NCBI RefSeq assembly: GCF_029953595.1
Contig: NZ_CP124535.1
Location: 3,393,001-3,457,000 of the forward strand
Direction of reading: 5' to 3'
DNA length: 64,000 nt
Source: Fuscovulum ytuae
GTDB lineage: Bacteria > Pseudomonadota > Alphaproteobacteria > Rhodobacterales > Rhodobacteraceae
The notes below the pieces were generated by a model. It worked only from the letters and a program-made list of their open reading frames with translations. It ran no database searches and was not told where the DNA came from. This document shows positions 44,756 to 61,377 of the stretch, piece after piece. Both the position numbers and the translations under genes were made by a program. Numbering within the stretch: position 1 is the first letter of the stretch; every line of letters begins with the position of its first letter.

Positions 44756-45921
44756 TCCGTAACGGTTTGGGCCCGGTTGATCGCGCCGACACCCTGATCA
44801 AAGAGCGTGATGAACTTGCCCAGCGTCACCGTATCGGCATTGGTCACAAAGATCGCGTCGCCATCGGTTAGAAGGAAGCGCTGGGCGCTGAACTGGGTTT
44901 CCGGGCGGGACATGTCAAAGCGGTATACGGTGGGAAGACCCTGTTCGGTGACGGGATAGGCATCAAGATCCGCGATGCCCGCCTGACCAAGTCGGCGGCG
45001 GCTTTCATGGCGGAAGAGGAAGACGCCCGAGGGATTGGCCCGTTCATCCCGCGCGCCGCCTGCGGCGGAGATTGCCTCAAGCAGCGAATAGCGCGGGGTT
45101 TCGATGCGGTAAGTGTTTGTTTGCCCGACGGCACCGGCAAGTGTGTAGCGCGGTGGCTCATGGGCGAGGATAACCACGTCGTCGCGTTGCAGCGGGATGT
45201 CATTGGCCGGTTGCAGGAAGATGTCGCTGAGCCTTGCACGGGCCTGACGGTTGTTGCGGCGGATGGTAACGGTGGTTTCATGGGCAGGGTTGCTGCTGCC
45301 GCCGGCGGCGGCGATGGCTGCCGATAGGCGGTCCCCGCTCAGGGAAAGCTGGAACGGGCCGGGGCGTCCAACGGTGCCCGTGATGACGGCGCGGTTGCCG
45401 CTGGAGGTTGAAATGCGGACAAGGGCCTGCGGTTCGATGGCCTTGCCTTCCAGGCTTTCGACGATCAGCGTTTCGATTTGCAGGGGTGTGCGGCCTGCGA
45501 CGGAGATCTCTCCCACGTAGGGAAGCGTTATATGGCCGTTTCGGCCGACGGTGACATTGTCGAAATCGGTTCCGCCCGCCCCGCCGTTGCCGGTGGCGAA
45601 AAGGCCGCCGGACCCGGCTTCAAGGATGCGGATACTGAGGACATCGCCAACGCCCACCGCTTCGGATGGGGCGGCGGATGGGTCAAGCGACAGGCCCGAG
45701 ACGGAGGTTACGGGAGGATTGCCTAAGGTGCGGGTGATGTTCTCATCCACCTCGATCAGGAGGAAGGATTTGTCTTCCGCCCCTTCCAGAACGGCGGCGG
45801 TGGACGGGCCCTGTTGCGGCAGGGCACAGGCGGACAAGGCGGCGATGGAGCCAAGGAGGAGGCCGCGTCGGGTAAGCGCCGCACGGCAGGACGGATTGCG
45901 CGGCGTAACAGGGAGGAGCAT
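44752..45921 (-). CDS. Outer-membrane polysaccharide export lipoprotein (Wza/KpsD-like)
   Basis: The 389-residue protein begins with a lipoprotein signal (TRRGLLLGSIAALSAC, lipobox LSAC). It contains the polysaccharide export domain: VGVGDVLSIRILEAGSGGLF, then VGRNGHITLPYVGEISVAGR, and two SLBB-type units (VITGTVGRPGPFQLSLSGDR; YTLAGAVGQTNTYRIETPRY). Proteins of this family form the outer-membrane channel for capsule or exopolysaccharide. ATG 45921 is preferred: it gives a proper signal peptide, whereas the longer frame to 46008 has no ribosome binding site. It is the first gene of the minus-strand operon and is divergent from the KDSR-like SDR by 37 bp. Confidence 0.9.
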   Translation of the reverse strand: MLLPVTPRNPSCRAALTRRGLLLGSIAALSACALPQQGPSTAAVLEGAEDKSFLLIEVDENITRTLGNPPVTSVSGLSLDPSAAPSEAVGVGDVLSIRILEAGSGGLFATGNGGAGGTDFDNVTVGRNGHITLPYVGEISVAGRTPLQIETLIVESLEGKAIEPQALVRISTSSGNRAVITGTVGRPGPFQLSLSGDRLSAAIAAAGGSSNPAHETTVTIRRNNRQARARLSDIFLQPANDIPLQRDDVVILAHEPPRYTLAGAVGQTNTYRIETPRYSLLEAISAAGGARDERANPSGVFLFRHESRRRLGQAGIADLDAYPVTEQGLPTVYRFDMSRPETQFSAQRFLLTDGDAIFVTNADTVTLGKFITLFDQGVGAINRAQTVTE

Positions 45922-45958
45922 GGTGGAGCCTTGAGTTTTTAGTTCAGGTGCGTTGGGC

Positions 45959-46771
45959 ATGAGTAGAGCGGTGCGGACCGTTTTCGTCACGGGCGGGTCA
46001 AGCGGCATTGGGCTGGCCGTGGCACGTGATTGGGCGAGGCGGTTTCAGGGTAGGACCGGGCAGATCGCGTTGTTTGGCCGGGATACCGAGCGGTTGGAAA
46101 AGGCCGTGGCAGAGATCGCGGCGCTGGAGCCTACGGTGGCCGTGCGCGGTTGGAGCGTGGATGTGGCGGATGCCGCCGCTGTCGCCTTGGCGATGAAGGC
46201 TGCGGTGCAGGCGATGGGCGTGCCGGAGCGGGTAATCCTGTCGGCGGGTATGACGCTGCCGGGGCTCTTTGAAGGGCTGGAGATCGACGCGCAGCACAGG
46301 GTCATGGAAGTGAATTATTTCGGCGCTGTGCATGTGCTGCATGTCTTGCTGCCGCAGCTTCAGCCCGGCGCGCGGATCGGCTTTGTCGGATCGGCGGCGG
46401 GGATTGCGGGTATCCATGGCTATGGCGGTTATGCGCCATCCAAGCTGGCGTTGCGGGGACTGGCCGAGGTTCTGCGGGTGGAGCTTTCCGCGCGGGGCAT
46501 CGGTGTGACACTGTGCCAGCCGCCCGACACGGACACCCCCATGCTGACCGCCGAGCGCGGGCATCGCCCGGCGGTGACGGAGGTGATTGCCGGCACGCAA
46601 GCCATGACAGCGGCAGAGGTGGCCCTTGTCTTGATCCGTGCGATGGAGGCCAACCGCCTTCATGCACTGCCCAGTTGGGCGGTGCGGTTGCTGCACCTTT
46701 TCGGGCCGCTGTCCGGGGCGATGTTGCGGCGGCGACAGATCCGGCTGATACGGGACTTGGGGCCGGATTGA
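45959..46771 (+). CDS. SDR of the 3-ketodihydrosphingosine reductase type
   Basis: The 270-residue reductase has the cofactor motif VFVTGGSSGIGLAVARDWAR, ILSAGMT in place of NNAG, catalytic Ser in GFVGSAAGIAGIHG and Tyr-x3-Lys in YAPSKLALRGLAEVLRVEL. The strongest clue is CQPPDTDTPMLTAERG: PPDTDTP is the signature of 3-ketodihydrosphingosine reductases (KDSR/Tsc10). These reduce the 3-keto group made by serine palmitoyltransferase. The C-terminus ends with a hydrophobic-basic segment near HALPSWAVRLLHLFG, also seen in KDSR-like proteins. It stands alone on the plus strand inside a minus-strand capsule operon. With the PKS and alpha-oxoamine synthase it could complete a sphingoid-type pathway; that connection is inference from context. 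Confidence 0.82.
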   Translation: MSRAVRTVFVTGGSSGIGLAVARDWARRFQGRTGQIALFGRDTERLEKAVAEIAALEPTVAVRGWSVDVADAAAVALAMKAAVQAMGVPERVILSAGMTLPGLFEGLEIDAQHRVMEVNYFGAVHVLHVLLPQLQPGARIGFVGSAAGIAGIHGYGGYAPSKLALRGLAEVLRVELSARGIGVTLCQPPDTDTPMLTAERGHRPAVTEVIAGTQAMTAAEVALVLIRAMEANRLHALPSWAVRLLHLFGPLSGAMLRRRQIRLIRDLGPD

Positions 46772-46782
46772 AGGGGGGCGGG

Positions 46783-48246
46783 TCATGTCAGATGCTCGCG
46801 CAGGATATGCATGAACATCGACAGGATGCCCCAGATCAGGAAGGCCACCGCTCCGATCAGCAGGATGGTGAGGAGGGCCTGCGGATAACGGGCCGATTCC
46901 GGTGGTGAGGGGGTCACAAAGGTGGCGACATAGCGCTGTTGCCGATCTGCTTCGACGCGCGCGGCTTCTAGCGAGGAAAGGGCCGAGAGATAGGCGCGTT
47001 CGCGGAAGTCGAGATCGACCTTGAGCGCCTCGTAAAGTGTGACGGAGCGGTTTAGCGAAGCACTGAAAGTGGGGGCGGTTCCACCTGCGCTGGTGTCGCC
47101 TTCCTCACCCATTCCCAGCCGGGCACGTTCCGAGGCGATCTGGCGTTCGAGCGAGTCGATCTGGCTTTGCAGGACGCGGACGCTGGGCGCTTCGGGGGAG
47201 AGGAATTCGCGCAGGCTGCTGAGTTCGGTGCGCGTGCTGGCAAGCCGGTTTTGCAGCTGGGCGAGGACGCCTTCTTGTGTGGCGACGCTGGCGGTGGGAT
47301 CGATCTTTTGTTCGGTTTCGCGGAAGGCGGCGATTGCGGCGCGTTGGTCGCGGAGGGCTTCTTCGGCGCGCAGCAACTCAAGCTCGGCCAGACGGACGGT
47401 GTCTTGCCGCGCCTTTTCCGAGACGGCGTTGATGAGGGTGGAGCTGGCCTCAAGAACAACCTCGGCCATGCGGGTGGCATCGCCGGGGGTGAAGGCCTGT
47501 GTTTCGACGGTGATGATCTGGGTGGCGGATTCGAAACTGGCCGAGACGACAGAGGGCAGATAGTCGACCATGTCTTCGGTCGTGGCATCTTCTGGCAGGC
47601 GCGTCAGGAAGTCGCCGTGGGGGGCGGAATAAATGGTGCGGAGATCAACCTTCTCGGTCAGCGCGTCGAGGAATTCGCGGCTTTCTAGATATTCCACGAT
47701 CATCCAGGAATCGGCGACCGTGCTGCCCGATCCGGTGCTGCCCGAGACGAGGCCAAGCAGATCGCCCGATGAGGCGCCGCTGGGCGAGCGGATGGCGAAC
47801 TTGATCTCCACGGCATAGCGGTCGACGGCGACGAAGCTGTAATAGGCGGCGCTGGCCAAGATGGGCAGGATCACGCCGAGGATGAAGGTCAGGATGGTGA
47901 TCCGGCTGAACAGACGGCGTTGGGTCGCCGTCTGTACGGCGATGGGGCCTGCGGCAAAGGTCGTGTCGCGATCGGGGCCGGGAACGATGCGCGCTGGGGG
48001 CTGATCCCCTTCGAAGCGCCGGGCGAGGCGGTTCTTTTTGGGGTTCATGCGGTTGGGGTTGGGGTCATCTGGGCGCGGGCGGCGCGGACGGCGACCGAAG
48101 GCTTCATCGTCGTCGTCGTCAAAGAGCGCGGGTTCGGCCTCGCGGTTATTCGGGCCGGTCTGCGCGGGCGGCTCCGTTTGGGCCTGTTCGAGGACAGCCG
48201 GCTTTTGCAGCGGGGTGATCTTGGGGTCATGCATTGATTGCGACAT
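46783..48246 (-). CDS. kpsE: Capsule export inner-membrane protein (KpsE/BexC/CtrB-like)
   Basis: The 487-residue polysaccharide co-polymerase-like protein links the ABC exporter to the outer-membrane channel. Its cytoplasmic N-terminus (~115 residues) is unusually long, with an Asp cluster (FDDDDDEAFG) followed by an Arg/Pro-rich part. Transmembrane helix 1 is TILTFILGVILPILASAAYY. The periplasmic part has the family line VDRYAVEIKFAIRSPSGASS, then a long coiled coil (residues ~270-390) with many Glu, Arg and Ala. Transmembrane helix 2 is at the C-terminus (ALLTILLIGAVAFLIWGILS). Start 48246 or the ATG four codons later is possible. It follows kpsT on the minus strand with a 20-bp overlap of its start. 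Confidence 0.9.
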   Translation of the reverse strand: MSQSMHDPKITPLQKPAVLEQAQTEPPAQTGPNNREAEPALFDDDDDEAFGRRPRRPRPDDPNPNRMNPKKNRLARRFEGDQPPARIVPGPDRDTTFAAGPIAVQTATQRRLFSRITILTFILGVILPILASAAYYSFVAVDRYAVEIKFAIRSPSGASSGDLLGLVSGSTGSGSTVADSWMIVEYLESREFLDALTEKVDLRTIYSAPHGDFLTRLPEDATTEDMVDYLPSVVSASFESATQIITVETQAFTPGDATRMAEVVLEASSTLINAVSEKARQDTVRLAELELLRAEEALRDQRAAIAAFRETEQKIDPTASVATQEGVLAQLQNRLASTRTELSSLREFLSPEAPSVRVLQSQIDSLERQIASERARLGMGEEGDTSAGGTAPTFSASLNRSVTLYEALKVDLDFRERAYLSALSSLEAARVEADRQQRYVATFVTPSPPESARYPQALLTILLIGAVAFLIWGILSMFMHILREHLT

Positions 48247-48880
48247 AGGCGTCGATGGCCTCTTCTATGTCGTCGTAGAACCGGGTCGTGCCGTTGGCGA
48301 CGAGCAGGCCGCAATCGCAGAATTCGCGGAGCGCTTTCATTGAATGCGAGACGAGGATGATGCGGGAACGACCCATCAGGTCGTCGAAGGCGCGCTGTGC
48401 CTTTGCCTTGAAGCTGGCATCGCCGACGGCGAGGACCTCATCGACAAGATAGAGGTCGAAATGAAGCGCCATGCTCAGGCCAAAGCCGATGCGCGCCGCC
48501 ATCCCAGAGGAATAGGTGCGCATCGGTTCATGCAGAAAGGGGCCAAGTTCGGCGAATTCCGCAACATAATCGATGACGGCATGTTCATCGGCCCCGTAGA
48601 CGCGGGCGACGAAGCGGATGTTTTCTATGCCCGTGAGCATGCCATGAAAGGAAGCGCGCAGCCCAATGGGCCATGAGACAGAGACAGAGCGGGTGATGCG
48701 GCCATGATCAGGGTCAACAAGGCCAGAGATCAGGCGCATGAAGGTCGACTTTCCGGCCCCGTTGCGGCCCAGAACGGCGATATTCCGATAAGGCAGGACT
48801 TGCGACACGTTGTTCAGCACAAGGCGTCGCGCGCCGCCGCGCAGGGGATAGGTCTTGGTAACGTTTTGAAATTCGATCAC
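48227..48880 (-). CDS. kpsT: Capsule ABC transporter ATP-binding protein KpsT
   Basis: The 217-residue ATPase powers polysaccharide export. Walker A is GRNGAGKSTFMRLISG, the signature motif TYSSGMAARIGFGLSMAL and Walker B LYLVDEVLAVGD, with the switch His in ILVSHSMKAL. These are characteristic of the KpsT/CtrD/BexA group rather than the longer Wzt type with a carbohydrate-binding C-terminus. The start GTG 48880 is chosen: it overlaps the kpsM stop (GTGA), and GGGGGA lies ahead. The longer frame to 49036 overlaps kpsM and has no support. Confidence 0.93.
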   Translation of the reverse strand: MIEFQNVTKTYPLRGGARRLVLNNVSQVLPYRNIAVLGRNGAGKSTFMRLISGLVDPDHGRITRSVSVSWPIGLRASFHGMLTGIENIRFVARVYGADEHAVIDYVAEFAELGPFLHEPMRTYSSGMAARIGFGLSMALHFDLYLVDEVLAVGDASFKAKAQRAFDDLMGRSRIILVSHSMKALREFCDCGLLVANGTTRFYDDIEEAIDAYVAINA

Positions 48881-49674
48881 ATCATCCCCCGCTTGCTGAG
48901 AATCATCTGGAACATGCCCAGAGCGGTGAGGATCAGGCCCACGAAATAAAGATAGGGGATGTCGATGTGATAGGTGGGATAGCCGGGCAGGTAGCCTGCT
49001 CGAAAGCTTTCCACCCCGTGGATGATGGGGTTCCAAACAATGAAGCCACGCAATTCATAGGGCAGGTTTTGCAGGCTGAAGATCACGCCTGATAGGATGA
49101 ATGCCGGTGCCATGAGCATGTTGTAGACATGGCCCGTCATGTTGAAACGGCGCTGAATGGCGGCAATATTCAGGCCGACGCCGAAGGCCAAAAGGCCAAG
49201 GCCGAAATAGGCAATGAACATGCGCCCCATATCATGCGGCGGCGGGCTGCCGAAGGCGAAGTAAAGGAAGATGAAAACAAAGGTCGCGATCATGATCGAT
49301 GTGATCGTGTCAAGGACCAAGCGGGCCACGGCTGCGTCGAGTTCGCGCACGCGGGGATAGCTGAAAAGAGGGGTATTCGATTCCAGCGCCATGCCGATGA
49401 AGCCGGAGGCGTGGCGAAAATAGACGAAGGCCAGCACGCCAGAGGCGTAGAAGGGGGCGAAATCCAGCCCGTTGCCGCGCAGTCCGGTTACGGAGAAAAA
49501 GTAAAGCATCGCGGCGGTGACAGCGAAGGGTTCCGCCACGGCCCAGGCATAGCCGAGGCGGGATCTTCCGTGGCGCACGCGCGCCTCGCGCAGGACAAGC
49601 GCGAAGACAGACCGCAGGAAGGTGTGTCCACCCGTCCGGCATTCGGCCAGTTCAATGCGCAGATCGGCAATCAT
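48877..49674 (-). CDS. kpsM: Capsule ABC transporter permease KpsM
   Basis: The 265-residue ABC-2 permease has six hydrophobic helices and the family line ALVLREARVRHGRSRLGYAW, followed by AVAEPFAVTAAMLYFFS. The region AIQRRFNMTGHVYNMLMAPA and FSLQNLPYELRGFIVWNPII is typical of KpsM/CtrC/BexB. With KpsT it moves lipid-linked polysaccharide across the inner membrane. ATG 49674 is the most likely start; earlier in-frame ATGs exist (49707, 49764). It is the first gene of kpsM-kpsT-kpsE and divergent from the PKS gene, so one promoter region serves both. Confidence 0.92.
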   Translation of the reverse strand: MIADLRIELAECRTGGHTFLRSVFALVLREARVRHGRSRLGYAWAVAEPFAVTAAMLYFFSVTGLRGNGLDFAPFYASGVLAFVYFRHASGFIGMALESNTPLFSYPRVRELDAAVARLVLDTITSIMIATFVFIFLYFAFGSPPPHDMGRMFIAYFGLGLLAFGVGLNIAAIQRRFNMTGHVYNMLMAPAFILSGVIFSLQNLPYELRGFIVWNPIIHGVESFRAGYLPGYPTYHIDIPYLYFVGLILTALGMFQMILSKRGMM

Positions 49675-49911
49675 GACATGTCCGCGCGGCTGGCGATCAT
49701 GGGCCATGCCAAAGCACGGAAGGCACGATGCCACCTTGTGGCCATGCCTTCGGTCGCTGCCCAAGCATGAGGCAGTTTCGGCGAATTTACTTGCAAACCC
49801 GAACCCTTTAACCGCGCCGATTGTTGACCGATGCTATCCTTAAGATTAGGCATAAGAATGTGACAGTGCGCAAGGCGCTGTTTTGTTTACATTTATTAAC
49901 GAGTGTGCTGA
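49675..49911. promoter_or_regulatory. Shared AT-rich control region between kpsM and the PKS gene
   Basis: The stretch 49790-49911 is clearly lower in GC than its surroundings. It has TTGACC at 49824-49829 with a poor -10 match (TAGGCA, 49847-49852, 17-bp spacing) and T-rich TTTTGTTTACATTTATTAAC at 49880-49899. A divergent promoter region is likely by position. No ribosome binding site better than GAG is seen before the PKS start. The minus-strand promoter of kpsM is not obvious. Confidence 0.4.
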
Positions 49912-52900
49912 GTGGCAAAAAAGATTCACGTCACGGGTTGGGCCTGCCGCCTGCCGGGTGCAAACTCGGTCAAGGACTTGGCCGACGTGCTTTTTTCGGC
50001 ACGCGATACCGTGACGGAAATCCCCGAAGATCGCTGGTCTCGGCAGTTTTTCCTGCATCCTGTGCCGGGGACGAAGGGGAAGGCCTATACTTTTGCGGCG
50101 GGAGTCGTGGAAGATCTGTGGGCATTTGACGCGGCCCCGTTTGGCATATCGCCGCGCGAGGCGGGGCAGATGGACCCTCAGCAACGTTTGCTGTTGCAGG
50201 TCGTTTGGGAGGCGCTGGAAGATTCGGGCCTGCCGCCCGACAGTCTGGCAGGGCAGCATATCGGGGTCTATGCGGGCTGTTCCGCCATGGCGCATGCGGC
50301 GCGGCTTGCGCAGGACGCCGCGCTGACCGACGCGCATTTGATGACGGGCAATACCTTGGCGCTGGTGTCGAACCGAGTGTCCCATGTGTTGGACCTGCGG
50401 GGGCCGTCGATGACGGTGGATACTGCCTGTTCATCGTCGATCGTGGCGATGCGGTTGGCAGAAGAGGCGCTGCTCCGCGGAGAGATTGATGTGGCGGTGG
50501 TGGCCGGGGTGAACGCCCTGCTGGACCCGATCCATTACATCGGCTTTTCGGCGGCGCGGATGCTGTCGCCAAAAGGGCGGTGCCAGCCCTTTTCGGCCAT
50601 GGCGGATGGTTATGTGCGGGCAGAGGGGGCGGTGGCCTTTGTCCTTGAACGTCGGACGGCGCGCGAATTGGGCGCGCGGCGGTCGCATGGAATCCTGCGC
50701 GCGGTGGAGGTGAACACCGACGGGCGCACATTGAACGTCGCCTTGCCGTCAATGGAGGGACAGGCGGCCCTTCTGCGCAAGGTTTATGATCGGGCTGGGG
50801 TGGACCCGGATGCGCTGGCCTTTGTGGAGGCGCATGGGACCGGGACACTGGCGGGGGATCCGGTGGAGGCGGGTGCGCTGGGCCGGGTGCTGGGTCAGGC
50901 GCGGACGGCGGCGCTGCCTATTGGATCAGTGAAGTCGAATATCGGGCATCTGGAGCCTGCATCGGGCGTGGCGGGTATGCTGAAGGCGCTAATCGCGCTG
51001 GAGCGACGGGTGCTGCCATCCAGTTTGCATGCGAAAACGCTTAATCCCGGGATCGATTTTGAAGGATTGAACCTGAAGGTGGCGCAAGAGGCGCTGCCCT
51101 TGGGAGAGGGGCCTTTGCTGGCGGGGGTGAGTTCCTTCGGTTTCGGCGGGGCCAATGCGCATGCGATTGTGGAACGGGCGGAGGTGTCGCCTGTATCCGA
51201 AACCCGCGGCGGCGCAGAAGGCGACGCGCCGATTCTATTCCTATCCGCGGCAAGCGAAGCGGCATTGGTGCGGATGATGGCGGCGTGGCAACCGCTGGTC
51301 GCGGGGGAGGCTGCGGGAGGTGGCCTGCAGGAGTTGTGTGGGCAGGCGGCGACCTATCGCGGGCGGCTGGCGCATCGCGCGGCGCTAATCTGTGACGCGC
51401 CTGAGGAGGCCGCTTTGGCCTTGGCGCGGGGGGCGCAAAGCAAGGCTGACCTGCGGCTTGTCACTGGTCGGTCCGATCTAGTGGAGGCAGAGGTGGCCTT
51501 CGTCTTTTCGGGCAACGGGTCGCAATATGCCGGCATGGGCCTTGATGCCATGGCACACGATGCCGCCTATGCGAAGGCCATGGGGCAGATTGACCGGGCC
51601 TTTCGGGGTGTGGCGGGTTGGTCGATCATCGAACGGCTGGCGGCGGGCGATCTGGAAACGCAAATGGGCGATGCAGTCGTCGCGCAGCCTCTTTTGTTCG
51701 CGGATCAAATCGCGCAATTCCGCGCCTATCAGGCGCGCGGCCTGCGACCGGCCGCGGTGATGGGCCATTCAGGCGGCGAGGTGGCCGCGGCCTATGCTGC
51801 GGGCGCGCTGTCGCTGGGCCAGGCGGTGATGGTCACGCATCTGCGCAGCCTTGCGTCACAACCTTTGCGCGGGGCAGGCGGGATGCTGGCGGTACAGGCC
51901 ACGGCCGAGGATATGCGCGTGGCGATTGCGGCGTTCGGCGGCGGGGTGGAACTGGCCGCCGAGAACAGCCCGCGTAGCGTTTCGGTGGTGGGAGAGGGGG
52001 AGGTGCTAGACGCCTTTCTGCGCCATGTGCGGCGGGTGCTACGCTGGCCTGCGGTGAAGCTGGCGATCGACTATCCCTATCATAGCAAGGCTTTCGATCC
52101 GGTGGCCGAAGCGTTGCGAGACGCCTTGCGAGACCTGCGACCACGGGCCGTGCGTATTCCCTTCATCTCGTCCGTCACAGGGCAAGAGATGGCGGGGGAG
52201 GCCTTGGATGCGGATCATTGGGCTGCGAATGTGCGACAGCCGGTGGCCTTTCTGCCGGCCATGGCGGCGCTGCGGGCGCGCGGAATCCAGGCTTTTCTGG
52301 AAGTGGGGCCGTCGCCCGTCTTGCAGACCTATATGACGGGATGTCTGGAGGGTGCGGGCTGCGCGGTGCTGCCGGGGCTTGACCGGGGTGAGGATGAGGC
52401 GGCGGCGGCGGGGATCAACCCTGTGGCGCGGGTCGTGGCGCGGGCGGTGGTGGCCGGGGTTGCGTTGCAGGGTCATACGGTCTTGCCGCGCGCCACGTCG
52501 CATCGGGACGATCTGCCGACCTATCCTTGGGAGCCTGAGCAAGTTCGGATTGATCAGACCCCCGGCATCCTGAACCGCTTTGGCGATGGGCTGCGGCAGC
52601 ATCCCTATCTGGGCCGCGAAGAAGGGGTGGATGCGCGGCTTTGGTATTCGAACATCGATGCGGTGATGGTGCCTGCCTTGGCCGACCACCAGCCGGGTGG
52701 GCGCGTGATCCTTCCGGGAACTTGGCTGGCAGAATTGATGCTGGCGGCGGGGGCTGAGACGCTGGGCCCCGGTGGGGTTGCCTTGCAGGATGTAGATTTT
52801 CTGGCCCCCGTCGTTCTGACGCGCCAGAGCATGACCGAGGTGCAGGTGCGCGCCTTGACCGATCAGGGGCGGATCACAATCGGGTTCCGCGCAAGGGGCG

Positions 52901-55900
52901 AGACGGGGCCTTATCGCGTGCAGGCGCAGGGTCGGTTCGAACGCGCCTTGCGGATTGAGGATGAGGTGGCTCCGCCTGACCCTCGCCCAAGGACTGGAGA
53001 CAGGACAGGCGCGCGGCTTTATGTAACGGCGCGGCGTTTGGGCCTGCATTACGGGCCAGCCTTCGCTTTGGTCGAGCGTGAGCGGAGGCCTGCGCCCGGT
53101 GTGGTGGAGGTGTTCCTGCGGGAGCATGAGCCGATGGACGGGCCGAGGACGCGCCTTCTTCTGGATGTGCCGGGGGCTGATGCGGCGTTCCATGCCCTGA
53201 TCCCGGCGCTGGAGGAGACAGAGTTTGAGCGTGCCGGTCTGGGCTTTGTTCCGGTGCGGATCGGTCGGCTTGTCATTGCGCGGCCCGGGGCAGTGGTCGC
53301 GTCGGCGCGGGTGATGCTGCGGCTGAAGGGGGCGCGGTCGCTTTTGGCCGATTTCCTTTTGTTCGACGGCGACGGGCAGTTGATCGCGCGGATCGAAGCG
53401 GCACGGTTTCAGGCGGTGCGGTTGCAACGAGACGTGGCGCTTCCTGTGCATGGGTTCCGGCAGATCGCGCTGCCCTTGCCGCGGTCAGAGGCGGCTGAAG
53501 AAGTGGCAGAGCGTGTCGTTGCCGCATTGGAGGCTGCACCTGCCCTGCCGGATGAAGAGTATTTTCTCATCGAGGCAGCAGCGCAGGCGCTTGCGGCAGA
53601 AGGCATGCGGGCCTTGGCGCGGGATGGTGTTGTCCGGGCACCCTTGCCATCGGTCTGGGCCGAAGGCATGGCGGGCATCGCCTTGCGGGCCGGGATGGTG
53701 CGCGCCGTTGAGGGCGGATGGCAGTTGACCGAGGCCGGGGCTGCGGCGATGGCCGCGCCTTTGATTGCGATGATCACGCAAGAGCGTCCCGATCTGGTGC
53801 CAGAGGTGGCGATCCTGACCCACTTGGCGCGACGGGTGACCGGGCTTGTCGGGCTTTCCCCCCCTGACTTGCCCGGGGCCGAGGACGTGTTCGGACGGGC
53901 GGCCCTTGATGCGCTGCGGATGGGATCGGTCTTTCGGCAACGGCGGCGAGCTGCTTTGGCCGATGCGGTTATTGGGGCCGTTGCAAGGGTACGACCGGGG
54001 GTCGCCTTGCGGATTGCCGAGGTGGTGCAGGACACGGCGCAGCTTTTGCCGCGCCTGACCGACGCAATTGCCCCCGGGCTTGCCACCTTTTCCGAGATTG
54101 TCCTGCCCGGGTCAGAGGATGGGCCTGTCGCACGGCCAGATCGCGTGGCGCGACTGGAGGCGACAGCGCAGGCTTTGCGAGCGGCGGGGGGGCATGACCT
54201 GATCCTGTCGGAAGGGGCGCTGTCAACGACTGGGGTTCCGCTGGTGCGGCTTGCCGAGGGGCTTTTGCCGGGCGGGCGGATCATTGCCCTTGAGGCAGAA
54301 CCGTCGGATTTTGCCGATCTGGTTTGGGGTCTGGATGAGGGATGGTTTGCGGAAGGCGTGACTCCGGACGGGCCGCTTTCGCCTTTGCAGACTGGGGCGG
54401 ATTGGTTGGCGGCCGTCGAGACAGCCGGGCTTGTGGCTAAGCTGCACGCGATGCCTGACGCGTTTGGTGCGGCGCAACTGGTTTCGGCGGCGCGCGTGGG
54501 AGGGGGCGAGACGAAGCTGCCTATGCCGGGAGGTGAGAGCGACCCGGCTTTGGCGGCGGCGGTTGCCCATGGCTTGGCGCAGGACGTCGATACGGTGATG
54601 GCGGTGGGGGGCTGGACTGTCGCGGTCTTTCCTCAGGTCAAGGCGGTGGCCGATCCTGCGGCGCAGCTGGCCGGGCGTGTGCTACGGCTGCGGGAACTGG
54701 TGACTGAGGCCACTGTGTCACCGCTGCTGTTCGTGGTCCCGGCGGGGAGTGGGCTGGGGGTCAGTGATCCGGGCCAAGCAGCGGTTTGGGCCTTAATCCG
54801 GTCGGCGGCGAATGAACATGCGACAGTACCTATGCTGCGCTGCGATTGTGATCCAGAGCTGCCTGCCGCGGATGTGGGGTTGCAGCTGGCACGACTGATC
54901 GCGTCGGGAACGAGTGAGACGGAAATTGTTATCGGGCGGGACGGCGTTTCGGCGCTGCGCGTGATGCAAGGTGTGGTGGATGCCGGGGCGGCTGCGCAGG
55001 ACAGTGTAGCGGAGCGTGCCGTGCTGCGGCCTGCGGTGGCGGGTGGAATTGACGATCTGCGCTGGCAGCGCGAGACGCGTCAGGCACCGGGGCCGGGTGA
55101 AGTGGAGATTGCGGTCGCGGCCACGGGTCTGAATTACCGTGACGTGATGTGGTCTATGGGCCTTTTGCCGGAAGAAGCGCTGGAGCGCGGCTTTGCTGGA
55201 TCGACGGTTGGGCTGGAATGCGCGGGACGTGTGCTGCGCTGCGGGCCGGGGGTGACGGGGCTTGCACCTGGTGATGCGGTGCTGACCTTTGGGCCGTCCT
55301 CTTTTGCATCGCATGTGACGGTGGAGGCGCGGCTGGCGGCGCGGCTGCCCGACGGCATTGCGCCCGAAGCGGCGGCGACATTGCCGGTGGCGTTTTTCAC
55401 CGCGTGGTATGCGATGGTCACCTTGGCCGGGTTGGAGGCTGGCGACTGGATCTTGGTGCATGGGGCAGCGGGTGGCGTTGGACTTGCTGCCTTGCAGATC
55501 GCGAGACATCGCGGGTTGCGGGTGATCGCGACAGCGGGGTCGGAGGTGAAGCGGTCTTTCCTTGCCGCCGAAGGCGTGGAGCATGTGCGGGATAGCCGCA
55601 CGCTTGACTTCGCCGAGGCGGTACGGGGGATCACCGGTGGGCGCGGTGTCGATGCGGTGCTGAACGCTTTGGCGGGTATGGCGATGGAGCGCAGCCTTGG
55701 TTGCCTTGCGCCTTTTGGTCGGTTCCTTGAGCTGGGGAAGCAGGATTTCTACGCAAATACGGCCGTGGGCCTGCGGCCTTTGAAGGAAAACATCGTCTAT
55801 CACGGGATCGACGTGGATCAGGTGATGGCTGCGCGGCCCGCCTTGGCGGCGCGGGTCTTTGCTGAGGTGATGGCGGCCTTTGAGGCGGGGGCATTGCGCC

Positions 55901-57222
55901 CCTTGCCCTATCGCGCCTTTGCCGCCGATGAGGCGGTGTCGGCGTTCCGGCTGATGCAAAAGTCTGGGCATATTGGCAAGGTCGTGGTTGTGCCGCCCGA
56001 TCCGGCAACGGTGCGGGATGAGGAAGGTGCCTTGGGCCGCTTTGCCCCGTCAGCATCGGGCTGGCATTTGATCGTGGGCGGTCTGGGCGGGCTTGGCCTT
56101 GATATGGCCGAGTGGCTGGTGGCCTCTGGTGCGCGGCGTTTGGCCCTGATGGGGCGGCGCGGTGCGGTCGAAGGGCCTGCGGTCGAGGCGATTGCCCGCT
56201 GGCGACGGCAGGGGGTGGAGGTACGCCCCATCGCCTGTGATGTGGCGGATGGCGTGGCACTGGAGAAGGTGCTGGCCGATCTGGTGCCGCTTGCCGGGGT
56301 GATCCATTCGGCGATGGTGCTGGAGGATATGCCACTTGCGTCGATCACGGCGGAGGTTCTGGACCGGGTGCTGCCTGCGAAAGTGGCGGGGGCGGCACAT
56401 CTGGATCGGCTGACGCGGGGGATGGCGCTGGAGTATTTCGTGCTGTTCTCGTCGATGGCGACGTTGATCGGCAATCATGGGCAATCGGCCTATGTGGCGG
56501 CGAATGGCTATCTGGAAGGGATCGCACGGTCGCGGCGGGCAGAGGGTCTGCCGGGGCTGGCGGTTGGCTGGGGCGCGATTTCCGACGTGGGCTATCTGTC
56601 GCGGGACCGTGAGACGGCGGCCTTGGTGCGGCGGATGTCGGGGGGGGCAGAGTTCACTGGTGTGCAGGCGACGCGGGCGCTTGAGCGGCTTTTGTCGCTG
56701 GGCGAAGTGGTGGGGCCTGTGGTGCATGTGTCGCCGATGGGGTGGAACGCGGTTTCCGTCACATTGCGGACGCTGGGGGAACCTGCTTTTGGCCTGTTGA
56801 AGGCGCTTGGGCGGAGATCTGAAGCGGAGGTTGGTGAGGATGATCTGCGGTCGGTCCTGACGGGCCTGACAGAGGCGCGGGCGGCGGAACGGCTGGAAGC
56901 GTGGCTGGTGGGGCGGGTGGCGCATATCCTTCAGGTGCCGGAAAAATCGGTCGCGGCGACCAAACCTGTCTCTGATCTGGGCGTGGATTCGCTGATGGGC
57001 GTGGAACTGGGGCTGACGGTGCAGCAGACGCTGGGGGATGATATCCCGGTGACCCTGATTTCCGATGCGCTGAGCCTGCGCGAAATCGCGCTGCGGATCG
57101 TGCGGCATCTGCATGGCGCAGGCAGCGGAGGCGAAGAGGCTGTAGGCGAGGTTCATTTGGCAGAGCAGCATCTGGGGTCGGTCGGAGCGTTGCGCGGTGG
57201 CCGAGCGGAGGCTGCAGAATGA
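49912..57222 (+). CDS. Iterative highly reducing type I polyketide synthase (KS-AT-DH-degenerate MT-ER-KR-ACP)
   Basis: A single-module 2436-residue synthase with no thioesterase. The ketosynthase has Cys173 (DTACSSS), His308 (HGTGT) and His346 (NIGH). The acyltransferase has Ser620 in GHSGGE, and its selectivity motif is YPYH (721-724), neither HAFH nor YASH. The dehydratase has His926 in HQPGGRVILP and DAAFH for the second acid. Residues ~1190-1700 look like a methyltransferase domain without motif I. The enoylreductase (from ~1715) has the NADPH motif HGAAGGVGLAALQIAR at ~1850. The ketoreductase has GGLGGLG, Ser2181 and Tyr2194. The ACP carries Ser2360 (GVDSLMG). All reductive domains look active, so a saturated alkyl chain is expected from iterative use. 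GTG 49912 follows an in-frame stop directly. The stop overlaps the alpha-oxoamine synthase start, which probably releases the chain. Confidence 0.95.
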   Translation: MAKKIHVTGWACRLPGANSVKDLADVLFSARDTVTEIPEDRWSRQFFLHPVPGTKGKAYTFAAGVVEDLWAFDAAPFGISPREAGQMDPQQRLLLQVVWEALEDSGLPPDSLAGQHIGVYAGCSAMAHAARLAQDAALTDAHLMTGNTLALVSNRVSHVLDLRGPSMTVDTACSSSIVAMRLAEEALLRGEIDVAVVAGVNALLDPIHYIGFSAARMLSPKGRCQPFSAMADGYVRAEGAVAFVLERRTARELGARRSHGILRAVEVNTDGRTLNVALPSMEGQAALLRKVYDRAGVDPDALAFVEAHGTGTLAGDPVEAGALGRVLGQARTAALPIGSVKSNIGHLEPASGVAGMLKALIALERRVLPSSLHAKTLNPGIDFEGLNLKVAQEALPLGEGPLLAGVSSFGFGGANAHAIVERAEVSPVSETRGGAEGDAPILFLSAASEAALVRMMAAWQPLVAGEAAGGGLQELCGQAATYRGRLAHRAALICDAPEEAALALARGAQSKADLRLVTGRSDLVEAEVAFVFSGNGSQYAGMGLDAMAHDAAYAKAMGQIDRAFRGVAGWSIIERLAAGDLETQMGDAVVAQPLLFADQIAQFRAYQARGLRPAAVMGHSGGEVAAAYAAGALSLGQAVMVTHLRSLASQPLRGAGGMLAVQATAEDMRVAIAAFGGGVELAAENSPRSVSVVGEGEVLDAFLRHVRRVLRWPAVKLAIDYPYHSKAFDPVAEALRDALRDLRPRAVRIPFISSVTGQEMAGEALDADHWAANVRQPVAFLPAMAALRARGIQAFLEVGPSPVLQTYMTGCLEGAGCAVLPGLDRGEDEAAAAGINPVARVVARAVVAGVALQGHTVLPRATSHRDDLPTYPWEPEQVRIDQTPGILNRFGDGLRQHPYLGREEGVDARLWYSNIDAVMVPALADHQPGGRVILPGTWLAELMLAAGAETLGPGGVALQDVDFLAPVVLTRQSMTEVQVRALTDQGRITIGFRARGETGPYRVQAQGRFERALRIEDEVAPPDPRPRTGDRTGARLYVTARRLGLHYGPAFALVERERRPAPGVVEVFLREHEPMDGPRTRLLLDVPGADAAFHALIPALEETEFERAGLGFVPVRIGRLVIARPGAVVASARVMLRLKGARSLLADFLLFDGDGQLIARIEAARFQAVRLQRDVALPVHGFRQIALPLPRSEAAEEVAERVVAALEAAPALPDEEYFLIEAAAQALAAEGMRALARDGVVRAPLPSVWAEGMAGIALRAGMVRAVEGGWQLTEAGAAAMAAPLIAMITQERPDLVPEVAILTHLARRVTGLVGLSPPDLPGAEDVFGRAALDALRMGSVFRQRRRAALADAVIGAVARVRPGVALRIAEVVQDTAQLLPRLTDAIAPGLATFSEIVLPGSEDGPVARPDRVARLEATAQALRAAGGHDLILSEGALSTTGVPLVRLAEGLLPGGRIIALEAEPSDFADLVWGLDEGWFAEGVTPDGPLSPLQTGADWLAAVETAGLVAKLHAMPDAFGAAQLVSAARVGGGETKLPMPGGESDPALAAAVAHGLAQDVDTVMAVGGWTVAVFPQVKAVADPAAQLAGRVLRLRELVTEATVSPLLFVVPAGSGLGVSDPGQAAVWALIRSAANEHATVPMLRCDCDPELPAADVGLQLARLIASGTSETEIVIGRDGVSALRVMQGVVDAGAAAQDSVAERAVLRPAVAGGIDDLRWQRETRQAPGPGEVEIAVAATGLNYRDVMWSMGLLPEEALERGFAGSTVGLECAGRVLRCGPGVTGLAPGDAVLTFGPSSFASHVTVEARLAARLPDGIAPEAAATLPVAFFTAWYAMVTLAGLEAGDWILVHGAAGGVGLAALQIARHRGLRVIATAGSEVKRSFLAAEGVEHVRDSRTLDFAEAVRGITGGRGVDAVLNALAGMAMERSLGCLAPFGRFLELGKQDFYANTAVGLRPLKENIVYHGIDVDQVMAARPALAARVFAEVMAAFEAGALRPLPYRAFAADEAVSAFRLMQKSGHIGKVVVVPPDPATVRDEEGALGRFAPSASGWHLIVGGLGGLGLDMAEWLVASGARRLALMGRRGAVEGPAVEAIARWRRQGVEVRPIACDVADGVALEKVLADLVPLAGVIHSAMVLEDMPLASITAEVLDRVLPAKVAGAAHLDRLTRGMALEYFVLFSSMATLIGNHGQSAYVAANGYLEGIARSRRAEGLPGLAVGWGAISDVGYLSRDRETAALVRRMSGGAEFTGVQATRALERLLSLGEVVGPVVHVSPMGWNAVSVTLRTLGEPAFGLLKALGRRSEAEVGEDDLRSVLTGLTEARAAERLEAWLVGRVAHILQVPEKSVAATKPVSDLGVDSLMGVELGLTVQQTLGDDIPVTLISDALSLREIALRIVRHLHGAGSGGEEAVGEVHLAEQHLGSVGALRGGRAEAAE

Positions 57223-58559
57223 TCGATGGCACGCCAAGTAAGGCCGATCTGGTGGCGGCGGCGCGGGCGGCGGCGCAGCGGCGCGGCTCGCGTCCTGTTG
57301 CCGTGGCCGAAGGGGCGCGTGGGTTCGACAGTCTGCCCGATTGGCGCGACAGCCAGCGGATGAAGCAGGTGGGGGCTTTGGTCGGTGTGGCGACGCCCTT
57401 CTTTCGACGGCATGAGGGGCGCGCGGGTGCAGTGACCTGCATCGACGGGCGAGCTGTGGTGAACTTTGCCTCATATGACTATTGCGGCTTGAATGCCGAT
57501 CCGCGGGTTGCCGAGGCGGCGAAGGCGGCGATCGACCTTTATGGCGTGTCGCCGTCGGGAAGCCGGTTGGTTGCTGGATGCCGCCCGGTGCATGATGCTC
57601 TGGAGCAGGCTCTGGCGCGGCATTATGAGGCAGAGGCCGCGCTGACCTTTGTCAGTGGGCATTCCACCAATGTTTCGACCATCGCGCAGGTGATCGGCGA
57701 AGGTGATCTGATCCTGCACGATGCGCTATGCCACAATTCCATCCTTGTCGGGGTGAAGTTGTCGGGGGCGGCGCGGCGATCCTTTCCGCATAACGATCTG
57801 GCGGCGCTTGAGGCGCTTTTGACCGAAAACCGCGGGCTTTACCGCAATGCCCTGATCGTGACGGAAGGCCTATTCTCGATGGATGGCGATGTGCCGCCAT
57901 TGGCCGGGCTGATCGCCTTGAAGCGGCGGTTTGGCTGCTGGTTGATGGTAGATGATGCCCATGCGATGGGCTGCGTGGGGGCGAGGGGGCGCGGTAGCTT
58001 TGAGGCGGCTGGGGTGGCACCGGGTGAGGTGGACATCTGGATGGGTACGCTGTCGAAGACCTTGGCGGCGACGGGGGGCTATATCGCGGGCAGTTCGGTT
58101 CTGATCGAAGTGCTGCGCGACCATGCAGCGGGCTTTGTCTATTCGGTGGCGTTGGCGCCCGCACTTGCAGCGGCAGCAGAGTGCGCGCTGGGCCTGTTAA
58201 CGGAAGAGCCCGAGCGGGTGTCGCGGTTGCAGGCCAATGCGGCGGCCTTTCTGGCAGCGGCGCGGGCGGCGGGTTTGGAGACCGGATCGGCAGGGCCTTA
58301 TGGCATCGTGCCGGTCATGGTGGGCGACAGTCTGCTGGCTGCAAAACTGTCAGAGCGGTTGCTTTCGCGGGGGATCAACGTGATGCCGGTGATGTTTCCG
58401 GCGGTTCCCATGCAGAGCGCGCGGTTGCGCTTTTTCCTAAGTGCGCAGCATGAGGCAGAGCAGATTGTCGCGGCGGTGACCGCCACGGCGGACGAGATGG
58501 ACAGTTTGCGGCGGGAGGGGTTTGGGTCGGCTATCCCCCCTGCGGTCTTGGGTTTGTAA
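57219..58559 (+). CDS. Alpha-oxoamine synthase (serine palmitoyltransferase/AONS-like), PKS-coupled
   Basis: The 446-residue PLP enzyme belongs to the alpha-oxoamine synthases, which condense an acyl thioester with an amino acid and lose CO2. Motifs are VNFASYDYCGL near residue 90, GVSPSGSRLVAG, FVSGHSTNVSTIAQ, WLMVDDAHAMGCVG (Asp/His) and the PLP lysine Lys280 in MGTLSKTLAATGG. An N-terminal ~75-residue leader precedes the core. Relatives include BioF, KBL and serine palmitoyltransferase. The context (ATGA overlap with a thioesterase-less PKS) supports off-loading of the polyketide as an aminoketone, as fumonisin Fum8 does. No biotin or threonine genes are near. The amino acid used (Ala, Ser or Gly) cannot be told by eye. 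Confidence 0.9.
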   Translation: MIDGTPSKADLVAAARAAAQRRGSRPVAVAEGARGFDSLPDWRDSQRMKQVGALVGVATPFFRRHEGRAGAVTCIDGRAVVNFASYDYCGLNADPRVAEAAKAAIDLYGVSPSGSRLVAGCRPVHDALEQALARHYEAEAALTFVSGHSTNVSTIAQVIGEGDLILHDALCHNSILVGVKLSGAARRSFPHNDLAALEALLTENRGLYRNALIVTEGLFSMDGDVPPLAGLIALKRRFGCWLMVDDAHAMGCVGARGRGSFEAAGVAPGEVDIWMGTLSKTLAATGGYIAGSSVLIEVLRDHAAGFVYSVALAPALAAAAECALGLLTEEPERVSRLQANAAAFLAAARAAGLETGSAGPYGIVPVMVGDSLLAAKLSERLLSRGINVMPVMFPAVPMQSARLRFFLSAQHEAEQIVAAVTATADEMDSLRREGFGSAIPPAVLGL

Positions 58560-58621: not shown

Positions 58622-60442
58622 ATGAGTCCGTTCGACCGTCGTCTTGAGGTCATGACTGCCACGCGCCTGCAAGGTTTGCTTACGCCATTCGCGGGCATTC
58701 CGGACAGCCTTTACCTGGCGGAGGGCAGTCGTGCCGAAGTGGGCGAGGATGGGCTGTATCGACTTCCGCCGCGTGGTCGATTGGAGACGGACAGTTATTT
58801 CAATGCGTTCTACCTGAATTTCTGGCGCGCCCATGGGCGCTTGGCCCGCGTTGGTGTGTTGTGCCGGGTGCAGGGTGCGGTTGCGGTGCAGGTTCTGGCA
58901 CATATGGCGGGCGGCGGAGTACGTGTCGTCGACGACTGGATGGAAGTGGGTGACGGTCAGGAAAGCCTGCATTGGGTCTGGGCCGAAGTCGGCGACATCG
59001 GCGCGCCGGAGGTTCTGCGGCTTAGCCTGTCGGTGGCGACGGTGGATGGTGCATTGATCGAGGAAATGGCCTTCGTGACAGAGCCTGTCATTGGGCCCGT
59101 GCCGCGTCTGGTTGTCGGTATTTGCACGATGAACCGCGAGGTCCTGCTGGAGGGGACCTTGACGGCGTTGGCTGAATTGGCCGAAGAGACGCCGCTTTTG
59201 CAGCGGGTGCTTCTGATCAATCACGGTCGGCCATTCCAACGGCCAGAACTGCGGAAACTTTTAAAGCAGCCTCTGTTCCGCAAGGTGCAGCAGGCCAACC
59301 TGGGCGGCAGCGGCGGGTTTGCCCGCGCGATGCTGGAGGCGCAGGAGGGTGAAGAGGGGCCGACGCATCTGTTGTTGATGGATGATGACATCCGGCTTGA
59401 TCCACGGGTCATTCTGCGCGCCATGGCCTTTGCGCAAATGGCTGGTGAAGTGGCGGTGGGTGGGCAGGCGCTGGAACTGGAACGCCCGCATCGGTTGCAA
59501 GAGGCTTGGGGGCAGCTCGGCCGGAACTGGTTGCCTATGGTCGAGGGAGTGGGCACCGATCTGTCGGACCCAGCGTCGATGCAGCTTTGGTCACGGGTGC
59601 CTAAGGCCGACTATAACGGCTGGTGGTTCTGCCTGATCCCCATGTCGGCCCTGCGGCGCTGTGGCTTGCCCATCCCCTGTTTCATTCGGGGGGATGATAT
59701 CGAATATGGGTTGCGACTGCGTGAGGCCGGGGTGCCGGTGGTGCCATTGCCGGGGGTTGGGGTTTGGCATGCCTCGGTCCGCTATAAGCATGCGGGCATC
59801 GTGCATTACTATGATCTGCGCAACAGCCTGATCACAGCGGCGGCGCATCCACAGCTTGGTGATCTTCCGGGTGCGATGCATGTAATGGGCTATGTGCTGC
59901 ATCATCTGTTGGTGCATCGCTATCGTTCGGTGGAAGCATGCCTCATGGCCTTGCGCGATTTTCTGAACGGTCCGGATATGGCGCTGTCGACGGACGCGGC
60001 GTGGCTGCATCGGCAGGTGACCAAGACTGTCGAGTCGGTAAAGGCCCCGGAACGCTGCGAGGCACCGCAGACAGGGATGCGCCTTTTACAGCCTTTTTCA
60101 GTGAAGGACCCCGATCCTTCGCCATGGCAGGTGGTGCTTTTGGTGCTGCTTGTCCTGTTTCGGCCAGCGCAGCACGGTATCAGGCTATTGCAGAAGGGCG
60201 CGCCTGACCCGATGCGGATTGCCGGGTTGCCCTACCTTCTGGCGCTTGATCCCGAGGGGAAAACCTGCCTCGTCCTGCGGCCGCATCGGCTGCGGTTTAT
60301 CGGCTATCTGGCGCAGACCCTGTGGCTGGGGTTGCAATATGCGCTGTGGCGGAGGGCGGCGCGGCGCAGTTGGGGCCGCGCGCTGCCCCGTTTGTTGAGC
60401 CGGGACCATTGGTTGCGGGAATTCGCCACCCGAAGCCTTTAG
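58622..60442 (+). CDS. GlfT2-like GT2 glycosyltransferase
   Basis: The 606-residue protein has the design of galactofuranosyltransferase GlfT2. An N-terminal beta-rich domain (residues 1-150, with SYFNAFYLNFWRAHG and VGVLCRVQGAVAVQVLAHMA) is followed by a GT-A domain: VGICTMNREVLLEGTLTALA, ANLGGSGGFARAMLEA, the metal motif LLLMDDDIRLDPRVI, and NGWWFCLIPMSAL with FIRGDDIEYGLRLREAGVPV and a WHASVR histidine. The C-terminus is helical with one hydrophobic segment that may bind the membrane. It lies 62 bp after the alpha-oxoamine synthase gene on the same strand. It may glycosylate the polyketide-derived lipid or extend a galactofuranose polymer; both are inference. Confidence 0.88.
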   Translation: MSPFDRRLEVMTATRLQGLLTPFAGIPDSLYLAEGSRAEVGEDGLYRLPPRGRLETDSYFNAFYLNFWRAHGRLARVGVLCRVQGAVAVQVLAHMAGGGVRVVDDWMEVGDGQESLHWVWAEVGDIGAPEVLRLSLSVATVDGALIEEMAFVTEPVIGPVPRLVVGICTMNREVLLEGTLTALAELAEETPLLQRVLLINHGRPFQRPELRKLLKQPLFRKVQQANLGGSGGFARAMLEAQEGEEGPTHLLLMDDDIRLDPRVILRAMAFAQMAGEVAVGGQALELERPHRLQEAWGQLGRNWLPMVEGVGTDLSDPASMQLWSRVPKADYNGWWFCLIPMSALRRCGLPIPCFIRGDDIEYGLRLREAGVPVVPLPGVGVWHASVRYKHAGIVHYYDLRNSLITAAAHPQLGDLPGAMHVMGYVLHHLLVHRYRSVEACLMALRDFLNGPDMALSTDAAWLHRQVTKTVESVKAPERCEAPQTGMRLLQPFSVKDPDPSPWQVVLLVLLVLFRPAQHGIRLLQKGAPDPMRIAGLPYLLALDPEGKTCLVLRPHRLRFIGYLAQTLWLGLQYALWRRAARRSWGRALPRLLSRDHWLREFATRSL

Positions 60443-60463: not shown

Positions 60464-61297
60464 TCAGGGGCGTTGCAGGATGCAGGCGAAATCGGCGCGT
60501 CGACCGGTGCGGTATTCTTCATATTCGGTGCTGCCGGGCATATCTGCCCATTTCCAGCCATAGGCACGAAACGGCCATGGCACGCGGGCCAGTTCGGCGG
60601 CGCGGCGTGGGATATCCGCCTGCAGCGCAGCAAAGGTGTGTGGCGTGATGTTGTGGTAGCTGTGGAAGATCAAGCCGCTGGATTGTGCCGCGACGCGGAG
60701 TTCTGCTTCAATCGCGGCATGGTCGCCTTGGCGGTATCCAGCCGAGAAGGCGATGATCGCGCCGTTTCGGGCGCAACGGGTGGCTTCGGCCAGATAGGTG
60801 GACAGGCCGAAATAGGTGGGTGCGCCGACGGAGAGGACGAGGTCAGCGCAGCCATCGGGCAGGTTGATACGGGGGCCTTGCCCCTTCACGACCCGGCTGC
60901 CGGGTATCTGTCCAAGGAAGCGCGCCGCCTTGCGGGTGACGGTGCCGTTGCGATCCGTGCCGATCAGGCGGGCCTTCGGGAAAAGGGCATGGGCGTAGAA
61001 AAGGCCGCCACCTTGGCCGCAGCCGACATCGAGAATGACCTGCGGGTCGGGTTTCAGATGGGCAATCAGGTCGTCCAGAAGAAGATGATACATCATCGCG
61101 CTCGCCTCTTCTCCGGCCAGTTCGGGAAGGGCGCGGAGGTCGGGCGCAAGGGGCAGGTATCCGCCGTTGAAGAAGCGTTTCCGCGCAACTGGCGAGAAGC
61201 GGTACAGCACCTCATAGGCGGCAAGGTCAAAAAGGTGGAAGGCAAGCCGACCGAGCGCCGGGCGTGTGGCATGACGAAGGCGGACAAGATCGGGCAT
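60464..61297 (-). CDS. Class I SAM-dependent methyltransferase
   Basis: The 277-residue methyltransferase begins MPDLVRLRHATRPALGRLAF. The SAM motif I reads VILDVGCGQGGGLFYAHALF, followed by RLIGTDRNGTVTRKAARFLG, the acidic loop region LPDGCADLVLSVGAPTYFGL and a typical CARNGAIIAFSAGY. In pattern it resembles lipid-headgroup or phenolic/phthiotriol-type O-methyltransferases, but the substrate is unknown. It sits inside the envelope locus, convergent with the GlfT2-like gene and divergent from the kpsS-like gene (80 bp). The start 61297 lacks a strong ribosome binding site. Confidence 0.85.
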   Translation of the reverse strand: MPDLVRLRHATRPALGRLAFHLFDLAAYEVLYRFSPVARKRFFNGGYLPLAPDLRALPELAGEEASAMMYHLLLDDLIAHLKPDPQVILDVGCGQGGGLFYAHALFPKARLIGTDRNGTVTRKAARFLGQIPGSRVVKGQGPRINLPDGCADLVLSVGAPTYFGLSTYLAEATRCARNGAIIAFSAGYRQGDHAAIEAELRVAAQSSGLIFHSYHNITPHTFAALQADIPRRAAELARVPWPFRAYGWKWADMPGSTEYEEYRTGRRADFACILQRP

Positions 61298-61377
61298 GAG
61301 GGGGCACCAGCACGGATAAGCAACCTTTACGCTCTTTGGCAAAACATAGAGCCGGGACGGATGCAAGGAGCAGTGGC

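Follow-up and report, generated by a model that had tools for sequence, protein, structure and literature searches.

A capsule locus of Fuscovulum ytuae with a predicted pathway to a sphinganine-type lipid terminus

In the present study we analysed a stretch of 64,000 nucleotides of the Fuscovulum ytuae genome (contig NZ_CP124535.1, positions 3,393,001 to 3,457,000; hereafter the window), where the genes of a polyketide synthase (PKS), an alpha-oxoamine synthase (AOS) and a short-chain dehydrogenase/reductase (SDR) lie inside a capsule locus. We propose that this locus probably makes an ABC-exported capsular polysaccharide that carries a sphinganine-type lipid terminus of its own. In the proposed pathway the PKS would build a long saturated acyl chain on its acyl carrier protein (ACP) domain, and the AOS, predicted to couple it to an amino acid that is probably L-serine, would release it with loss of CO2 as a 3-ketosphinganine, which the SDR would reduce to a base resembling sphinganine. 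A putative head-group step would follow, and the base would then be the acceptor on which a KpsS-like transferase and glycosyltransferases begin the chain, and KpsM/T/E/D would export the finished chain. The three core genes, found where the initial annotation of this DNA had placed them, are:

45953 (TTG) or 45959 (ATG) to 46771, + strand: RkpH-type SDR, predicted 3-ketosphinganine reductase (adh_short; PPDTDTP)
49912 to 57222, + strand: iterative type I PKS of the RkpA/WcbR/SgaA type, 2436 aa (Pfam domains)
57219 to 58559, + strand: AOS of the RkpG/WcbT/SgaB type, 446 aa (Aminotran_1_2)

The domain order of the PKS is intact, with Pfam matches to ketoacyl synthase (KS), acyltransferase (AT), dehydratase (DH), zinc-dependent alcohol dehydrogenase, equivalent to enoyl reductase (ER), ketoreductase (KR) and phosphopantetheine-binding ACP domains in the order KS-AT-DH-ER-KR-ACP. 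A thioesterase domain was not found among the 14 Pfam families listed for this protein, and it is because of this lack that release of the chain by the AOS is proposed. The initial annotation had described the missing thioesterase, an AOS starting in the stop codon of the PKS and an SDR with the PPDTDTP signature, and was right on each: the ATG of the AOS and the stop of the PKS share four bases, and the motif is present in the SDR translation.

The closest known arrangement came from a Sinorhizobium meliloti record, reached by tblastn of plasmid records, which encodes a PKS and an AOS with a 4-base overlap followed by an SDR, a frame resembling lipoteichoic acid (LTA) synthase, a capsule protein and KpsF. 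By position and from the literature these genes are rkpA, rkpG, rkpH, rkpI and rkpJ, names that the record itself does not carry; the LTA-synthase-like frame is 62% identical to a Shinella protein and 31% to a Caballeronia protein. On sequence comparison the window PKS, AOS and SDR correspond to rkpA, rkpG and rkpH of the Sinorhizobium K-antigen region (rkp-1, comprising rkpU, rkpA, rkpG, rkpH, rkpI and rkpJ), a link that the initial annotation had missed. The two PKSs are 37% identical over 2521 columns and the SDRs 37-39%. Both sites have a PKS followed by an AOS overlapping by the same four bases, an SDR of the RkpH type (PPDTxTP) and an RkpJ-like PF05159 protein; however, the window SDR lies upstream of the PKS, and the window carries kpsM/T/E/D-like genes whereas the S. 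meliloti site is devoid of kpsM/T/E. Furthermore, S. meliloti has rkpI between the SDR and rkpJ, while the window has no LTA synthase, and since no RkpI-like protein was found there the window locus is a variant rather than a plain rkp-1 copy. Published work reports that an rkpA mutant of S. fredii makes no capsular polysaccharide (KPS, the K-antigen; PMC4270759) and that the wcb and rkp clusters consist for the most part of homologous genes (PMC3908369). What the 'fatty acid synthase-like' capsule genes of rhizobia make has been described only as a lipophilic molecule, maybe a lipid carrier or anchor (PMC3557214). The wcbPQRT genes of Burkholderia and Cobetia (PMC11766843, PMC3908369) encode equivalent kinds of enzymes near capsule genes, as in the Caballeronia locus L028, but with an SDR of the WcbP type and, in five loci, an extra LpxC-like gene. 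This LpxC-like deacetylase gene lies between the PKS and the AOS in beta-proteobacterial loci (L028:12898-13821, L074, L087, L098, L109 and L151).

A second precedent gives the chemistry. According to PMC12134224, in Pseudomonas fluorescens MYb115 the iterative PKS PfSgaA and the AOS PfSgaB lead to C24, C26 and C28 sphinganines, PfSgaB is nearly exclusive for L-serine, the SDR PfSgaC is the proposed ketoreductase, and compounds heavier by 154 Da are most likely phosphoglycerol sphingolipids. The chain building, decarboxylative condensation with an amino acid and ketone reduction predicted by the initial annotation are thus supported, being published for homologues, and we infer that the window enzymes act likewise in sphinganine synthesis. 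The precedent offered at that time was the fungal fumonisin pathway; release of a PKS chain by an AOS and subsequent ketone reduction are indeed alike in the fumonisin and sphingofungin pathways, whose FUM13 and SphF are named in PMC12134224, but the fungal products are secreted, the likeness is one of pathway steps, and the closest precedents are the bacterial rkp-1, wcb and SgaABC genes.

We compared the SgaAB proteins through near relatives of MYb115 rather than through the MYb115 genes themselves. A protein search found a close AOS in 16 of 398 Pseudomonas-like genomes, and 15 of these 16 places were fetched. The published sgaA start primer has a perfect match in three of the fifteen (L218, L219 and L220) and in the Pseudomonas locus L102, and all four adjoin KpsC/KpsS-like and LTA-synthase-like genes. 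The sgaA end has one mismatch in L219, L220 and L221, and the sgaB end has three in L219, whose AOS C-terminus, ELAKIG, is the one encoded by the primer; in L102 the sgaA and sgaB ends show 4 and 6 mismatches. Searching the 398 genomes for the sgaB end as a pattern gave 11 matches with two mismatches, none near any reference protein. The order in L218-L221, L231 and L102 is PKS, AOS, PhyH, KpsC, GNAT, LTA synthase, SDR, KpsS, KpsC; the four genes that separate AOS and SDR there are also what the published tags RS19800 and RS19775 would imply, assuming that tags step by five. KpsC-, GNAT- and LTA-synthase-like genes occur in 12 of the 15 loci, ten of which have the SDR too; L224 is cut at a contig end. 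From this gene order and the primer matches it follows that genes closely related to the published sphinganine set sit in capsule loci, where the LTA-synthase-like enzyme is an obvious candidate for attaching the phosphoglycerol head group. The window shares with SgaABC an iterative PKS and an adjoining AOS, both of the SgaAB family, and a nearby SDR, and near relatives of SgaABC likewise lie among KpsC/KpsS-like genes; it differs in sequence (36% identity for the PKS, over 2534 columns against L102, and 47% for the AOS against the SgaB-like row), and the Pseudomonas loci have an SDR of the WcbP (PGxV) type and an LTA synthase.

The family placement of the AOS was explored with a midpoint-rooted tree of 84 of 146 distinct rows, comprising 45 of the 107 RkpG-type rows (20 hand-picked and 25 random) and all others, after removal of identical rows and of the window copies L009 and L156. 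The window AOS groups with four Rhodobacteraceae-type rows (support 100/99) among the RkpG-type rows, in one group with the SgaB-like Pseudomonas rows. RkpG-type rows, a group without PKS and serine palmitoyltransferase (SPT) are together separated from BioF, KBL and ALAS at 98/91, and the SPT rows form a group of their own on the same side of the tree as the window AOS. The rows assigned to RkpG by score do not form a single clean group (three changes), because the long rows L165-L167 mix. Pairwise identity of the window AOS is 50.4% to Caballeronia, 48.6% to RkpG and 47.2% to the SgaB-like row, and 30-38% to SPT, KBL, ALAS and BioF rows. The protein scores below every curated AOS cut-off listed. 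Membership in BioF, KBL or ALAS was rejected on these scores (358.7 bits against a cut-off of 426.45, 318.7 against 460 and 234.3 against 338.55, respectively) together with the tree split. Identity with canonical bacterial SPT was likewise rejected, since the scores for NF047599, NF047600 and NF047603 (269.7 against 500, 275.6 against 640 and 207.1 against 670 bits) fall short and the SPT rows group on their own. The phylogeny called for by the initial annotation thus places the enzyme with RkpG and SgaB, on the SPT side. AOS enzymes vary in their choice of amino acid and 47% identity to the SgaB-like row is modest, so that the window enzyme could use alanine, glycine or another amino acid and yield a 1-deoxy lipid or some other amino-alcohol lipid that would still be destined for the capsule; we regard this as improbable, in view of its place in the tree group of SgaB-like rows and of the near-exclusive use of L-serine reported for PfSgaB.

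For the SDR, a phmmer search of the PDB returned the ketosphinganine reductase TSC10 first (E 3.4e-18), with other SDRs next (4.5e-17). TSC10 ranked third with a profile of 18 RkpH-type rows and was not among the best 60 of 636 with a profile of 11 WcbP-type rows. The window SDR has eight matches among 72,556 plasmid records, seven of them 26-100 bases away from a PKS-linked AOS and the eighth in Azoarcus. Identity as FabG was rejected (92.2 bits against an NCBIfam cut-off of 222, and 79.1 against 273), and the protein is also far under all other cut-offs in the 25 rows shown.

The distribution of the genes across genomes bears out the co-occurrence that the initial annotation had proposed to survey. 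A scan of the named genomes with an eight-row AOS alignment gave at least 585 confirmed places, and the best 80 of these with five plasmid records make up the 85 loci compared here. The PKS adjoins the AOS in 83 of them; in the exceptions, L049 and L083, the PKS was not seen and 2.1 kb and 1.2 kb of upstream contig, respectively, are in view. At least one kind of Kps-like gene occurs in 46 of the 60 loci of at least 19 kb, and at least two kinds in 37, counts that may include some generic ABC ATPases. An SDR is present in 40 of these 60, either of the RkpH type (PPDTxTP), as in the window and in rhizobia, or of the WcbP type (PGxV), as in several loci of the alpha, beta and gamma classes. An LTA-synthase-like gene is present in 29, and in 21 of the 25 loci having both the two genes are adjacent on one strand, whichever the SDR type. 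Within the genus, AOS and SDR are each found in 8 of 19 genomes, together in seven, with the AOS alone in G536, the SDR alone in G527 and neither in ten (Fisher p 0.0012, uncorrected for kinship). The order KpsD-SDR-KpsE-KpsT-KpsM-PKS-AOS-glycosyltransferase-methyltransferase-KpsS is fully kept in two of six same-genus stretches (L185 and L186), so that the arrangement is not due to chance; L188 and L189 are rearranged, with the SDR still about 5 kb from the PKS, and L187 and L190 are interrupted by contig ends (L190 and L041 are one contig). Among 149 genomes sampled from the order, 14 have an AOS match at E 1e-60, and only the window's own genome, G110 and G141 reach at least 50% identity.

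Two irregular forms were met on the way. The PKS of L034:7266-14946 (G110) reads as two overlapping frames, possibly through a frameshift or sequencing error, and in Planktothrix and Streptomyces plasmid records (L031:5581-13179 and L032:8362-13185) the AOS match lies within one large gene, fused with PKS parts.

The core set is surrounded in the window by the following genes:

39599 to 42235, + strand: two-domain glycosyltransferase (Pfam GT2 and GT4 domains)
42255 to 43307, - strand: GT2 glycosyltransferase (Glycos_transf_2)
43175 to 44755, - strand: GT4 glycosyltransferase (Glycos_transf_1)
44752 to 46008, - strand: KpsD/Wza-like polysaccharide export protein (Poly_export and SLBB domains)
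46783 to 48246, - strand: KpsE-like inner-membrane export protein (TIGR01010, E 2.2e-70, below its cut-off)
48227 to 49036, - strand: KpsT-like ABC ATPase (ABC_tran; open frame, true start probably further in)
48877 to 49764, - strand: KpsM-like ABC permease (ABC2_membrane)
58622 to 60442, + strand: GT2 glycosyltransferase after the AOS (Glyco_tranf_2_3, weak Glft2_N)
60464 to 61582, - strand: S-adenosylmethionine-dependent methyltransferase (Methyltransf_25/11)
61336 to 62685, + strand: KpsS/RkpJ-like capsule synthesis protein, predicted 3-deoxy-D-manno-octulosonic acid (Kdo) transferase (PF05159, E 8.1e-67)

With KpsM/T/E/D-like export genes and a KpsS-like transferase, the sequence identifies an ABC-transporter-dependent (kps) capsule locus. 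The setting among kpsM/T/E, a KpsS-like transferase and glycosyltransferases had been recognised in the initial annotation, to which the KpsD-like gene is now added. The KpsE-, KpsT- and KpsM-like genes occupy the interval between SDR and PKS on the opposite strand, and four glycosyltransferase genes surround the core set. The one following the AOS, a possible first-sugar or polymer enzyme, is also found 3' of the AOS in L042 and L043 and, of the six same-genus stretches, in L185-L187 only. The KpsS-like protein is 41% identical to the S. meliloti capsule protein. Ranked by bit score, with 40 of 101 plasmid matches shown, its eight best matches (260-300 bits) are all in records with a PKS-linked AOS, and the next, from Novosphingobium (211 bits), are outside the 40 records listed for the AOS; this ranking of scores, as distinct from a tree, fits a putative co-evolution with the acceptor. 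The interleaving of glycosyltransferases and a methyltransferase with the core set could also be read as a sign that the PKS chain and the SDR modify a capsule sugar or other part of the glycan, as an acyl or amino-acyl decoration rather than a lipid end. We consider such a role very improbable, given that AOS chemistry in homologues yields a free base (PMC12134224), and that the SDR tracks the AOS and is so far below the FabG and other cut-offs.

A DUF6212 protein (PF19717, E 1e-98; 38152 to 39606, + strand) is the first before the glycosyltransferase genes of the capsule locus, and the open frame at 49129 to 49770 (+ strand), antisense to kpsM and with no Pfam or NCBIfam match, was not counted as a gene.

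A lipid-terminated capsule is supported by the intact PKS domains and the 4-base overlap as in S. meliloti, by the constancy of the PKS-AOS pair and its frequent kps-like neighbours, by the AOS tree and the TSC10 match, by the plasmid relatives of the SDR and the KpsS-like protein, by the MYb115 primer matches in capsule-type Pseudomonas loci, and by the adjacency of SDR and LTA-synthase-like genes. Several observations weigh against it. The fold search with the SDR model (pLDDT 94) gave Z values of 29.9-31.4 across the rows shown without separating KDSR from other classical SDRs; TSC10 is outside the 50 rows shown, which carries no weight either way. The reductase assignment of the initial annotation stays a prediction, with TSC10 the best PDB sequence match by a small margin. 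KpsC was not found in the window locus, a KpsC-like protein being present only elsewhere in the genome (L172). An LTA synthase of the RkpI/WcbQ kind was not found with the LTA profile at E 0.01 in the window, the six same-genus stretches or the four PF00884 (sulfatase-family) loci of the genome, nor in the further Rhodobacteraceae-type loci L041-L043 and L034-L037. WcbQ itself has been assigned the decoration of polysaccharide, not lipid, with glycerol phosphate (PMC11766843). Finally, no kps-like gene lies in the fetched range of 14 of the 60 long loci, and L225 and L226 show PKS and AOS alone, so that some PKS-AOS copies may serve another end.

The last point, together with the 2025 study PMC12134224, which shows free sphinganines acting on a nematode host and regards the Pseudomonas sphingolipids as secondary metabolites that are secreted, would agree with genes that make free sphingolipids, as membrane lipid or signal, and merely neighbour the capsule genes. 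This we judge unlikely: rkpA mutants lack KPS (PMC4270759), kps-like genes lie between the members of the core set both in the window and in other loci of the genus, and near relatives of the published cluster are themselves in capsule loci. The initial annotation had left the lipid to be glycosylated, exported or a polysaccharide anchor; we infer that the capsule has the sphinganine as its lipid end, with anchorage as the likeliest role.

The second capsule site of the genome (L172:14979-19707; G000:C1, about 281-286 kb) encodes KpsC-like (716 aa), KpsD-like and KpsS-like proteins.

The acceptor of KpsS is lyso-phosphatidylglycerol. A wider reading, in which we place about even confidence, is that RkpA/G/H, WcbR/T/P and SgaA/B/C are the same set and supply a dedicated sphinganine-type terminus for ABC-exported capsules across Proteobacteria, capped in many lineages with phosphoglycerol by the LTA-synthase-like RkpI/WcbQ and so mimicking lyso-phosphatidylglycerol. 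In the window version the cap would be missing or replaced, perhaps by the action of the glycosyltransferase after the AOS. The parts are already known; a connection between the capsule lipid genes of the rkp/wcb type and sphinganine synthesis was not found in the open-access literature searched, and the terms capsul, rkp, lipoteichoic and polysaccharide were not found in the main text of PMC12134224. If the lipid is a sphinganine, many plant symbionts and soil bacteria and some bacteria associated with animals would carry sphingolipids as part of their capsules, and those sphingolipids of P. fluorescens that act on the host would be anchor lipids of a capsule or precursors of such lipids. A long-standing puzzle of rhizobial capsules would thereby be connected with a sphingolipid pathway that was described for bacteria in 2025.

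A relative of the AOS lacking a PKS was also observed in other Rhodobacteraceae genomes (L039:8432-14334, G148). Its neighbours encode a myo-inositol-1-phosphate synthase, a cytidylyltransferase, a permease resembling LptF/LptG and an RkpH-like SDR with the PPDTDTP motif, a set that may form a pathway to an inositol phosphosphingolipid for export. An AOS and an RkpH-like SDR are found in L038 and L040 too, the Pfam scan of neighbours having covered L039.

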